The position numbers and the translations under genes are program-made. Below are positions 7,508 through 18,621 of a stretch of 32,878 nucleotides of DNA, piece by piece; position 1 is the first letter of the stretch, and each line of letters opens with the position of its first letter. The notes below the pieces were generated by a model, which did not search any database, was not told the origin of the DNA, and saw nothing but the letters and a program-made list of their open reading frames with translations. Origin of the DNA: Candidatus Staskawiczbacteria bacterium (lineage in GTDB: Bacteria > Patescibacteriota > Minisyncoccia > Minisyncoccales > Staskawiczbacteraceae); contig JAPLZF010000009.1 of NCBI GenBank assembly GCA_026395175.1, positions 146,083 to 178,960 on the forward strand. Reading direction: 5' to 3'.

Positions 7508-8236
7508 TTATTCTTCTAAAAACAAACCTCTGTTTTGAGCAATGTTGTTTTTGTACTCTAACCAATTTTTAATAGCGTCTCTACACCCTCCCGCTTCACT
7601 CATAGATTCAAATAAAAAATTTCTTTCAGTTACAGATGAAAAATTCTTTTTCCCAATATAATCTTGATAACTCGACCACTTATAATTTTCTAAAAATTCA
7701 ATTGATTTATCAATATCACTAATTCCTTTTTCTTTCCATCCCGGCTCGTATAGAGAAAGGGGATTAACATGAATATAATTAAAAACAGTCATAAGCTGAT
7801 TGTCATTTTCTACACTGACCGATTTAAACGCATCCTGAAAAACATGTCCTTTTCTTTGATACTTTTTATTAAAATATTTACTTAGGCCAATACCAACTTT
7901 TTGCATAAATTTTGAAACACCGCCATCTTTTATTTGTTTTACTAAGAGATGTATATGATTTGGCATAAAGCAGAAGGCTAATACTTCCACAAATTTATCT
8001 CGCTCATCTAAAATTGTAGGACTCCCGAAGTCGCTCAATTTTTCTCTTTTCTTTTCAACTTTACGATCTCGTCGTCTAATAAAGATAGTTACGGGCTTAG
8101 AATTATTAAATTCGTAAATTGAAAAAATTCCACGAAAATAATCATTAGTGTTTTTAAAAATCAAATTGTCATCAAGCGCCCGCATAACAATGTGATAAAT
8201 ATCTCCTGTTATAAATTGTTCTTTTCTTCTTGGCAT
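7508..8236 (-). CDS. REP-associated tyrosine transposase (Y1/HUH, IS200-like family)
   Basis: Transposases of this family nick single-stranded DNA with one tyrosine and a His-x-His metal site, and the RAYT branch acts on short palindromic repeats. The 242-aa protein begins MPRRKEQFITGDIYHIVMRA, has the HUH motif MPNHIHLLV (H94, H96) and the pattern VFNYIHVNP with the likely catalytic Tyr154, plus GHVFQDAFKS between them. I start at the ATG at 8236, not the upstream frame extension at 8260, because the extension is encoded by the repeat copy C. A second repeat copy (B) lies inside the gene and encodes about residues 64-76, so the loop before the HUH motif is longer than usual. Flanking and internal repeats in both orientations support a RAYT rather than a classical IS element; no subterminal IS200 ends were identified. 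Confidence 0.88.
   Translation of the reverse strand: MPRRKEQFITGDIYHIVMRALDDNLIFKNTNDYFRGIFSIYEFNNSKPVTIFIRRRDRKVEKKREKLSDFGSPTILDERDKFVEVLAFCFMPNHIHLLVKQIKDGGVSKFMQKVGIGLSKYFNKKYQRKGHVFQDAFKSVSVENDNQLMTVFNYIHVNPLSLYEPGWKEKGISDIDKSIEFLENYKWSSYQDYIGKKNFSSVTERNFLFESMSEAGGCRDAIKNWLEYKNNIAQNRGLFLEE
8012..8045 (+). repeat. REP-like repeat, copy B, in frame inside the transposase gene
   Basis: The first 32 bases are identical to copy C except for one base (G at 8033 instead of A), and include the core TTGTAGGACTCCCGAAGTC. It lies inside the transposase coding sequence and contributes residues reading LSDFGSPTI on the minus strand without breaking the frame. The core GACT/AGTC can pair; the lower stem has three mismatches compared with copy A. 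Confidence 0.85.
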
Positions 8237-8237
8237 A

Positions 8238-8270
8238 AATTGTAGGACTCCCGAAGTCACTCAATTTTTT
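8238..8270 (+). repeat. REP-like repeat, copy C, between mutM and the transposase
   Basis: This repeat fills the whole 32-base gap between the mutM stop and the transposase ATG. It shares AATTGTAGGACTCCCGAAGT and the following CTCAATTTTT with copy B. With copy A on the far side in the opposite orientation, the gene is bracketed by inverted copies. Confidence 0.85.
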
Positions 8271-15278: not shown

Positions 15279-16613
15279 ATGGAAGAAAATAAAAAACTGC
15301 TGGGTTCTGTGACCATTTCTCCAAAAATTATCGGGGAGGTGGAAAAGGAAGTAAAAGATATTGCAGGATTCAAAAAGAAAATTGAAGAATATGTTGCCGG
15401 CAACATCACCGAACTTTTGGATGTTATTTTATACGGAGCAATTGCCCTTGATGTTTCCGACATACACGTTGAACCGCAAGAAAAAGATGCAAGGTTGCGA
15501 ATAAGGTTGGACGGCATCTTGCAGGATGTTATTTTTTTTAACCAGGATTCATATCACCATTTGCTTTCACGGCTAAAACTTCTTTCAAAATTAAAATTAA
15601 ACATTACAGACAAGCCTCAAGACGGCAGATTTACAATTGAAATTTCAGAATCCCTTATTGAAATTAGAACTTCCAGTTTGCCTTCAGAATATGGAGAATC
15701 AATTGTTATGAGAATTTTAAACCCAAAAAATTTAATTTCTTTGGACGACTTGGGATTGCGAGCCGACCTTTATAAAACTTTTCAAAAAGAAATTGAAAAG
15801 CCAAACGGAATGATAATTGTTACCGGCCCTACCGGTTCTGGAAAAACAACCACGCTTTACGCATTTTTAAAAAAAATACAAAACTCAGAAATAAAAATTA
15901 TAACAATTGAAGACCCAATTGAATATCATTTAAAAGGAATTTCTCAGACACAGGTGGCGCCAGAAAAAGGCTATGACTTTTCAGACGGATTAAGGTCAAT
16001 TGTCAGGCAGGACCCTGATGTTATTTTGGTTGGTGAAATCAGGGACTTGGAAACATCAAAAATAGCCCTTCAGGCAGCTTTAACCGGCCACCTGGTACTT
16101 TCTACATTGCACACTAATGACGCAGCAGGGACCATCCCAAGGCTTGTAGACCTGGGTGTGGAGCCGTCATCAATTGCGTCTGGCCTTAAAATGGCTGTGG
16201 CGCAAAGGCTGGTTAGAAAAGTTTGCAAAAAATGCTCTACTCTTGAAAAACCAACAGCTGACGAATTGTCAGAAATTAAAAAAGGGCTCAAAGCATTGCC
16301 CTCATCTTTAAAATTACCAGATTTGGACGAAGTAAAAATTGCAAAAGTCAAAGAAGGTGGATGCGCTTTATGCAATTTTACAGGATATAAAGGCAGGCAG
16401 GGGTTGTTTGAAGCATTTTTGGTTGATTCTGAAATGGAAAAATTTATTTTGACAAATCCGCCGGTTTCTTCAATTCGCGAACTGGCCATAAAAAAAGGAA
16501 TGGTAACAATGTACCAGTCCGGGTTGATTGACGTTGTGCTTTTAAAAACAACAATGGAAGAAGTATTGCGGGTAGTTGAGGAAGACGAAAAAAAACCCGA
16601 TGTAGCTGTATAA
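15279..16613 (+). CDS. pilB: PilB/GspE-type secretion ATPase (type IV pilus assembly)
   Basis: This hexameric ATPase drives pilin polymerisation at the inner membrane. The 444-aa protein carries IALDVSDIHVEP, Walker A GPTGSGKTTTLY (183-194), the Asp box EDPIEYH (211-217), Walker B DPDVILVGEIRD (245-256), the His box with LSTLHTNDA, and a four-Cys zinc site (C316, C319, C362, C365). It is shorter than E. coli-type PilB/GspE (about 500-570 aa) because most of the N-terminal MshE/GspE-N domain is lost, with about 40 residues left before the core. Other pilus genes (pilC, pilT, pilins) are not in the window. It follows the degenerate DHH gene with one base between them. PilB rather than PilT is favoured by the zinc site and the SDIHVEP N-terminal domain. 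Confidence 0.92.
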   Translation: MEENKKLLGSVTISPKIIGEVEKEVKDIAGFKKKIEEYVAGNITELLDVILYGAIALDVSDIHVEPQEKDARLRIRLDGILQDVIFFNQDSYHHLLSRLKLLSKLKLNITDKPQDGRFTIEISESLIEIRTSSLPSEYGESIVMRILNPKNLISLDDLGLRADLYKTFQKEIEKPNGMIIVTGPTGSGKTTTLYAFLKKIQNSEIKIITIEDPIEYHLKGISQTQVAPEKGYDFSDGLRSIVRQDPDVILVGEIRDLETSKIALQAALTGHLVLSTLHTNDAAGTIPRLVDLGVEPSSIASGLKMAVAQRLVRKVCKKCSTLEKPTADELSEIKKGLKALPSSLKLPDLDEVKIAKVKEGGCALCNFTGYKGRQGLFEAFLVDSEMEKFILTNPPVSSIRELAIKKGMVTMYQSGLIDVVLLKTTMEEVLRVVEEDEKKPDVAV

Positions 16614-16750
16614 AAAAACGGCTCTAGAGTTGTAGGTGTTCTTATGTCTGGGACATAAACAAAGATTTATCTGAGGAATAATCGAGCCGGAGCAAGATTA
16701 TCCGAAGCTGAGATAAGTCCAAATAAATACCTCCAACTCTAGAGCCGTTT
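16612..16750 (-). ncRNA. Unidentified structured RNA-like element (~140 nt), 6S-like shape
   Basis: A 17-bp perfect outer stem (16616-16632 with 16734-16750) is extended after one mismatch by a 7-bp stem (16634-16640 with 16726-16732). Inside are a 7-bp hairpin TTATGTC/GACATAA (16642-16648, 16652-16658) and a longer arm (TTATCT/AGATAA at 16667-16672 and 16711-16716, then ATAATC/GATTAT at 16678-16683 and 16696-16701). On the plus strand only three T follow the outer stem; on the minus strand the stem is followed by seven T, as for an intrinsic terminator, so a minus-strand RNA is favoured. There, the layout (closing stem, bubble with a small hairpin on its 3' side, apical arm) resembles 6S RNA, but I see no sequence match to 6S, SRP, tmRNA or a known riboswitch. 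It fills the gap between pilB and ruvB. A palindromic mobile element is the main alternative. Confidence 0.5.
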
Positions 16751-16835
16751 ATCGTTAGACACTACTTAATACGAAAAATACCACAATTTAACTGCAAGTT
16801 TTCAATATTTTTAATTGTATCACCTTTTAGCTCAC

Positions 16836-17840
16836 ATGTCAAGCATTCTGCCTAAAAAAGAAGACGAAGCGCTGGACTCAACTTTGAGGCCTAGTTCTTG
16901 GGCTGAATACGTAGGCCAGGACAAAATCAAGGACAACATAAGGATAATTATAACAGCGGCAAAGCAAAGAAGCCAGAGCCCGGACCATTTGCTGTTTTAT
17001 GGCAACTCAGGACTGGGCAAAACCACCCTGGCTTATCTTGTGGCAAACGAAATGGGCAAAACCATAAGAGCAACTTCAGGACCGGCATTAGAAAGAGCCG
17101 GCGACTTGGCTGCAATTTTAACAAATTTGTTCGAAGGCGATGTTTTGTTTTTAGATGAAATTCATAGAATAAACAAAACCATAGAAGAATATTTGTATCC
17201 TGCAATGGAAGATTACAAATTAAACTTGGTTTTGGGAAAAGGGCCAATGGCGCGCACCATGGAACTAAAACTGCCAAAGTTTACCTTAATTGGGGCCACC
17301 ACAAAACCAGGATTATTATCAGCGCCCTTAAGAAACCGATTTGGCGCCACTTTTCAGCTTAATTTTTATAATATAGAAGACGTAAAAAAAATTATTGAAA
17401 GGTCCGGCAGGCTTTTAAAAATAAAAATGGAGCCGGATGCAGTGCAGGCAATTGCCCAGCGCTCAAGATTTACTCCAAGGGTTGCAAACCGACTTGTAAA
17501 ACGCGTGCGTGATTTTGCCCAAGTTCAAAATGCAGAAATTATTACAAAAGAAATTGCAGAAACAGCTTTGGATTCTTTAGAGGTTGATATGATGGGCCTA
17601 GAACCAAGCGACAGAAATATTTTGAAGGCTTTAATTGAAAAATTTGGCGGGGGACCGGTTGGTTTGCAATCTTTGTCAGCAGCTTCAATGGAAGAAGAAG
17701 ACACAATTTTAGACATTTACGAGCCATATCTTATGCAATGCGGTTTAATTGAGCGCACCCCAAAAGGCCGAGTGGCAACAAACCTCGCCTACAAACATTT
17801 AGATCTCCAACACCTCAAAAAACAATCTAATCTGCTTTAA
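16836..17840 (+). CDS. ruvB: Holliday junction branch migration ATPase RuvB
   Basis: RuvB is the hexameric motor that moves Holliday junctions with RuvA. The 334-aa protein has LRPSSWAEYVGQDKIKDN at the start, Walker A GNSGLGKTTLA, the LAAILTNLFEGDVLFLDEIHR Walker B region, the beta-hairpin LDEIHRINKTIEEYLYPAMED, sensor 1 TLIGATTKPGLLSAPLRNRFG with the arginine finger, and the C-terminal winged helix (GGGPVGLQSLSAAS ... EPYLMQCGLIERTPKGRVAT). I use the ATG at 16836 because the family begins shortly before the LRP motif; a frame extension to a TTG at 16815 has no homologous residues. The gene stands apart from ruvA (window start) and ruvC (22 kb). It ends at a strong hairpin. Confidence 0.96.
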   Translation: MSSILPKKEDEALDSTLRPSSWAEYVGQDKIKDNIRIIITAAKQRSQSPDHLLFYGNSGLGKTTLAYLVANEMGKTIRATSGPALERAGDLAAILTNLFEGDVLFLDEIHRINKTIEEYLYPAMEDYKLNLVLGKGPMARTMELKLPKFTLIGATTKPGLLSAPLRNRFGATFQLNFYNIEDVKKIIERSGRLLKIKMEPDAVQAIAQRSRFTPRVANRLVKRVRDFAQVQNAEIITKEIAETALDSLEVDMMGLEPSDRNILKALIEKFGGGPVGLQSLSAASMEEEDTILDIYEPYLMQCGLIERTPKGRVATNLAYKHLDLQHLKKQSNLL

Positions 17841-17877: not shown

Positions 17878-18621
17878 TTACTTATTTTTTCTTTTTTTCC
17901 ATTTCGCGCCTTTCAATACAGGTTCGTAAATGTCGTCATCTGGTTTTATTTTTAGAAAATCTTTTCTAGGTTTTTGAGAAGTGAATTTTATATTGCCGAC
18001 GTCTTCTATAATTGCCATTGGCGTTTGTTCAGCTCCCTCGCCCATTGCATAAACTGCCGAGGCCGATAAAGAATCTACAATATTTGTTTGAGACATTTTT
18101 AATTTTCTGCCAAAAATATCTTTTTTGTTTCTGTAATCTCGCAAAGGATAAAACCCATAATATGAAATTCCAATTCCCATAATTCCGGCTCGCAAAGGAG
18201 TTGTGTGACTGTCTGAAATTATAACGCCAAAGTTTTTTAGCTTAAATTCTTTTTTTATAAATTCATAAATTTCTTTAGCACATTCAAATGGTTTTTTGGG
18301 CCACAAAATATAATATCCGTTAGCATTACTTTCATCTATGCCTGCTGTTGGAATCAAAATATTATTTTTGATTGTCAGCATAACGTCATATTTTGGATGC
18401 GTGCTTTCTAAGTATAAATCTGCTTCTTGTTCTACCAGCTTATCTTTCTTTATCTTGTTTATCTTAACACAATCTCCTTTCCAGATAGAAACCACTTTTG
18501 AAGTAATAATAATTATAGATTTTTCTTTTACTTTATATTTCAAAAAACTTTGCTTAATAACAGAAAGCAAATCATCTTGAGGTGGAATTAACGGCCTTGT
18601 TTTAATTGCCGTGACTTTCAT
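17878..18621 (-). CDS. CofE-like gamma-glutamyl ligase (coenzyme F420-0:L-glutamate ligase family)
   Basis: CofE adds glutamate residues to F420-0 with GTP. The 247-aa length matches archaeal CofE, and the order of motifs agrees: TAIKTRPLIPPQDDL at the start, IIIITSKVVSIWKG (36-49), the segment ILIPTAGIDESNANG (family NAGIDxSN), GVIISDSHTTPLRAGIMGIGIS (family VTDTxGRPxRxGxxxxAIG), LRDYRNKKDIFGRKLKMSQTNIVDSLSASAVYAMGEGAEQTPMAII. The metal and GTP sites therefore look kept. No other F420 gene is seen, and the pathway is not expected in such small genomes, so the real substrate may differ. Its start directly abuts the stop of the upstream membrane protein gene, indicating a coupled pair. Confidence 0.85.
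   Translation of the reverse strand: MKVTAIKTRPLIPPQDDLLSVIKQSFLKYKVKEKSIIIITSKVVSIWKGDCVKINKIKKDKLVEQEADLYLESTHPKYDVMLTIKNNILIPTAGIDESNANGYYILWPKKPFECAKEIYEFIKKEFKLKNFGVIISDSHTTPLRAGIMGIGISYYGFYPLRDYRNKKDIFGRKLKMSQTNIVDSLSASAVYAMGEGAEQTPMAIIEDVGNIKFTSQKPRKDFLKIKPDDDIYEPVLKGAKWKKRKNK

Follow-up and report, generated by a model that had tools for sequence, protein, structure and literature searches.

What occupies the space between the convergent pilB-type ATPase gene and the divergent ruvB in a genome of Candidatus Staskawiczbacteria, and is it a gene in its own right or an appendage of its neighbours? The question concerns a stretch of 32,878 nt (the window, positions 146083-178960 of its contig), for which the original prediction, made from the letters of the DNA, had proposed an unassigned, terminated, minus-strand structured RNA at this locus, with a resemblance to 6S RNA. 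The inverted repeat on which that proposal was founded is real. Its 25-nt arms (16616-16640 and 16726-16750, 92% complementary) stand 85 nt apart, two inner arms are predicted within the hairpin at 16615-16750, and folding energy lies well below that of shuffled sequence on both strands: -55.5 kcal/mol for the minus-strand fold, where shuffled sequences give -29.1 ± 3.6 (z -7.3, none of 200 shuffles being as good), and z -7.4 for the plus-strand fold of the hairpin region. The A7/T7 tract is likewise located where it was claimed to be, at 16612-16618. Many dispersed genomic copies, named beforehand as something that would speak against such an RNA, are not found; the 744-kb, 95.5% complete assembly has one copy of the element, which is therefore not a dispersed repeat. 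Exact-pattern matches to it fall in Candidatus Staskawiczbacteria genomes and in one Patescibacteria genome, all of the Parcubacteria group.

Evidence from relatives bears on whether the fold itself has been selected. The 33 sequences of alignment A1 yield one consensus fold, a three-way junction of a closing stem (P1), a long arm (P2) that consists of two stacked helices flanking an internal loop, and a small hairpin (P3). Compensating changes, to which the original prediction had looked for a decision, are present at both levels of comparison. Among the 33 family relatives there are changes on both sides in 28 of 47 pairs (157 cells against 45 ± 6 for shuffled and 5-22 for slid controls), and for the order as a whole in 36/41 pairs (404 cells, where shuffled controls have 110 and slid ones no more than 113), the 57 sequences of this second alignment having been chosen with the help of covariance model R1 and aligned by MAFFT without structure. 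Compensatory base changes thus back one fold on one strand, which is the pattern by which a structured noncoding RNA gene may be recognised through comparison. Distant order members retain the fold and its core with few columns invariant. The most constant part is the P2 core, with UAG, GG and UCCUC(G/A) around the internal loop, together with the apical helix, which in many sequences is capped by UNCG-type loops; within the family the UCCCAGA loop of P3 is also nearly invariant. A pseudoknot between that loop and the P1/P2 junction is unsupported, the native pairing having an energy of -6.46 and permuted partners one of -6.61 ± 0.23.

Features of the pilB-ruvB locus, in window coordinates
Feature	Positions	Strand	Evidence or remark
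pilB-type ATPase gene, convergent, kept across the class	15279..16613	+	Pfam T2SSE, 383 bits; adjoins the RNA in 109/110 loci
Structured RNA: closing stem, long arm, short hairpin, U7 tail	16612..16750	-	R2 match 16615-16749, 97.9 bits; covariation
U7 tract of terminator	16612..16618	-	Sequence; overlaps pilB stop codon (16611-16613)
P1 closing stem, 3' strand; doubles as intrinsic terminator stem	16617..16637	-	Covariation
P3 short hairpin UUAUGUC-CCA-GACAUAA, 3' side of junction	16642..16658	-	Compensatory changes in 3/7 pairs (family)
P2 long arm, conserved core CUCAG...GGAUAAU...GCUCCGGC...AUUAUUCCUCAG (RNA sense), and tip loop, often UNCG-type	16663..16720	-	Alignments; core shared with class-level relatives
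P1 closing stem, 5' strand	16729..16749	-	Pairs with 16617-16637; compensatory changes in 12/20 pairs (family) and 20/20 (order)
Predicted 5' leader	16751..16807	-	From promoter position; start at about 16807, 7 nt past the -10
Sigma70-type promoter: -35 TTGACA (16842-16837), 17-nt spacer, -10 TACAAT (16819-16814)	16814..16842	-	11/12 consensus matches; TG before the -10
ruvB, divergent	16836..17840	+	Pfam RuvB_N/lid/C; adjoins the RNA in 82/110 loci

The strand is given by the kinds of pair that variation tolerates. In the family the ratio of G-U to A-C is 110:22 in the minus-strand fold against 30:28 in the best plus-strand fold, and in the order 239:41 against 31:82, an excess of G-U over A-C from which the minus strand is taken to be the RNA. 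An element of the plus strand is ruled out by this asymmetry and by the promoter. As to the latter, what relatives conserve is not the TGGTATTTT 'extended -10' that had been pointed out at 16770-16780 but the TTGACA-17-TACAAT arrangement at 16842-16814 (-). It is kept in almost all of them, and best scores, out of 12, average 11.2 in the order and 10.6 in both family and class, with controls averaging 8.2. The -35 runs into ruvB and shares sequence with its codons 1-3, start codon included (16836-16842). The -35 and -10 are conserved in two genomes despite the presence of other DNA between promoter and RNA. In these (G023 and G013) the two are separated by about 200 nt of extra DNA with both ends intact, and the insert in G023 contains repeat-like sequence (CATTGCGAGG...CTCGCAATGAC). 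A further observation is that ATGTCAAG-like ruvB starts recur among relatives, the picture being one of a divergent gene with a promoter in its opening codons.

From the promoter position, the RNA of the window would be preceded by a leader of about 55 nt. Leader sequence is variable, and many other families of the order have no leader or only a very short one; in other families the -10 is usually near the base of P1, and the RNA there should therefore be about 135-150 nt. At the other end, a run of at least four U behind P1 is found in 84/90 loci on the RNA strand and in 38/90 on the opposite strand. The minus strand is indicated alike by covariation, by the G-U/A-C asymmetry, by the promoter and by the U tract, and the central proposal, that of an unassigned structured RNA of this strand with a terminator, located between pilB and ruvB, is upheld.

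How widely is the element retained? By nucleotide search it is present in 33 of 35 family genomes (the genome of the window and a partial match in G026 being counted), and by covariance model R1 in 133/247 genomes of the order. Model R2 finds it in 150 of 383 class genomes; the order is represented among the 383 by 41 genomes, of which 36 have it. In a sample of the phylum the same model finds it in 9/379, all nine of which are within the class. The counts for order, class and phylum are probably minima, because strict filters were used and because a clear copy in G039 (86.5 bits) is outside the matches of the R1 search. The opposite situation is illustrated by G043, of the same order, in which pilB and ruvB nearly abut with no detectable copy between them; the RNA can therefore be lost and is not essential everywhere. 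Twenty class matches were taken from the weak end of the list (about 32-43 bits) to see where they lie. Context played no part in their selection, and the neighbourhood in which they lie therefore validates them independently: pilB adjoins all 20 (two of these pilB neighbours being partial matches at 34% identity) and ruvB 17.

With regard to identity, no Rfam 15 family reaches its gathering cut-off anywhere in the window, nor in 20 divergent relatives, and at E<=10 Rfam offers nothing convincing for the element. No description of the RNA was found in a literature search that covered only a minority of subscription journals. The resemblance to 6S RNA is one of outline, in that a closing stem, a junction with a hairpin on its 3' side and an apical arm are common to both, as are an own promoter, comparable length and single copy. 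An RNA of the 6S type, or a second such RNA that would bind RNA polymerase by mimicry of an open promoter, is nevertheless very improbable, and the resemblance did not survive comparison with the Rfam 6S model (RF00013), which has no match at E<=10 on 16550-16850 and none in the window's genome. Where 6S RNA has a large central bubble, the present RNA has a three-way junction, and in most order members outside the family only about 1-10 nt are left on its 5' side, so that no large open bubble exists. What the 6S model does pick up, in three genomes, is a different RNA (GGGAG...CACCCAC), over its full length at 26-33 bits with the cut-off at 46.4. It has its own promoter and terminator (an example is G022:C13:95198-95327 (+)), a model built for it (R3) matches in 90/383 class genomes, and it has the look of a divergent 6S RNA that has escaped annotation. 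It and the pilB-ruvB RNA co-occur in 27/41 order genomes, which argues further against the latter being 6S. In the window's own assembly, 95.5% complete, the 6S-like RNA was not found, also not after the adenylate-kinase-like gene that is its site in several relatives, so that coexistence is unproven there. The absence of a model score, the three-way junction and the separate 6S-like RNA were together the grounds for rejecting 6S identity.

Signal recognition particle RNA, like the present element, is small, structured and widely conserved, and a vacancy for it exists: neither bacterial model (RF00169, RF01854) finds SRP RNA in any of 38 family and order genomes, that of the window included. 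A divergent SRP RNA is even less probable than a 6S relationship, however, since none of the 38 has a detectable M domain of Ffh (PF02978), the part of the protein to which SRP RNA binds, with 14/14 controls positive. A search of the window's genome for SRP GTPase motifs found none, a result of little weight for want of a positive control. The joint absence of SRP RNA and Ffh M domain agrees with an earlier report that both ffh and ffs are undetected in Parcubacteria (PMC4508563). Nor does inspection of the alignments reveal the GNRA-loop/AGCAG signature of SRP RNA in the aligned core. With no match to either model and no detectable Ffh M domain, identity as SRP RNA was rejected.

The explanation considered rather likely is that of a gene standing on its own, whose product represents a new structured noncoding RNA family of the Parcubacteria class and probably acts in trans, binding protein through its P2 core. 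Its status as a new RNA family, and as a gene, is well supported by the comparative sequence evidence. A strong conserved promoter, an own terminator and single copy give it the gene structure of a stand-alone RNA that would be made constitutively. Transcription of the minus strand would start from its own housekeeping-type promoter and end at its own closing stem and U tract, and the transcript would fold into P1, P2 with its almost fixed core, and the small P3. As the P2 core is conserved beyond what base-pairing needs, a bound protein or complex is suggested, and the RNA would most likely be an abundant partner in trans of a conserved protein or complex that holds it via this core, in the manner of 6S or SRP RNAs.

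A counterpoint to a role in trans is that a single site beside pilB throughout the class is also what would be expected of a cis-acting element. pilB is tail-to-tail with the RNA in 109/110 loci, with a median of 6 nt between its stop codon and the 3' end of the match; in 82/110 the gene on the other side is a divergent ruvB, head-to-head with the RNA; and the ruvB start codon is covered by the -35 of the RNA promoter. Regulation of the pilB-ruvB locus in cis could take the form of competition between the RNA promoter and the ruvB start, together with a hairpin that ends or stabilises the convergent pilB mRNA; the RNA itself would then be a by-product, or would regulate pilB as an antisense RNA. 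This is possible, and the most substantial of the alternatives, though still unlikely. Neither a terminator nor a clash of promoters needs a near-invariant core within a covarying long arm, and the P2 core is far better preserved than terminator function requires. The U tract favours the RNA strand over pilB mRNA, and ruvB was not found adjoining the RNA in 26 of 60 order loci. An end region common to pilB and the RNA would, moreover, be enough to keep the genes adjacent, with no need for regulation of one by the other. The long, near-perfect inverted repeat could also bring to mind a mobile or palindromic repeat element, an origin to which almost no probability is assigned given the single copy, a locus fixed across the class and compensatory changes in a specific fold; the first two of these rule it out.

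Returning to a stand-alone gene, RNAs of this kind are known and it is the family that is new. Class-wide stand-alone structured RNAs are, to our knowledge, few in bacteria, and the best known, 6S, SRP, tmRNA and RNase P, are central. The pilB-ruvB RNA has no family in Rfam 15, and it extends, at one locus, through a class of reduced genomes without detectable SRP. It might, as a decidedly speculative and rather improbable extension, be a Parcubacteria-wide RNA machine without counterpart elsewhere that has taken over a core task, e.g. membrane targeting at the ribosome after the loss of SRP, or the control of the type IV pilus/DNA uptake system that its gene so constantly adjoins. From a practical perspective, it yields a concrete, testable RNA for bacteria that are hard to culture and mostly uncultured; the covariance models are usable for annotation, and use of the RNA as a metatranscriptome marker is possible.

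Parallels may be drawn with OLE, ROOL and GOLLD, orphan conserved bacterial RNAs. Like them, the pilB-ruvB RNA is a lineage-restricted structured RNA known through comparative genomics ahead of its function; unlike them, it is much smaller (about 135 nt), and Rfam yielded no related model. Cryo-EM structures of all three are the subject of PMC12286853.

Some other features of the window are also of note. At 7508-8260 (-) is a gene for a protein with an IS200-like Y1 transposase domain (Pfam Y1_Tnp), and at 17878-18621 (-) one for a protein of the F420-0:gamma-glutamyl ligase family (Pfam F420_ligase), in a genome of about 0.74 Mb. Between 10613 and 14194 (-) is encoded a protein of 1193 aa in which a cysteine protease domain of the papain type is combined with FG-GAP repeats, PEGA and a B_lectin domain (Pfam), an unusual architecture that is possibly that of a surface or host-contact protein.
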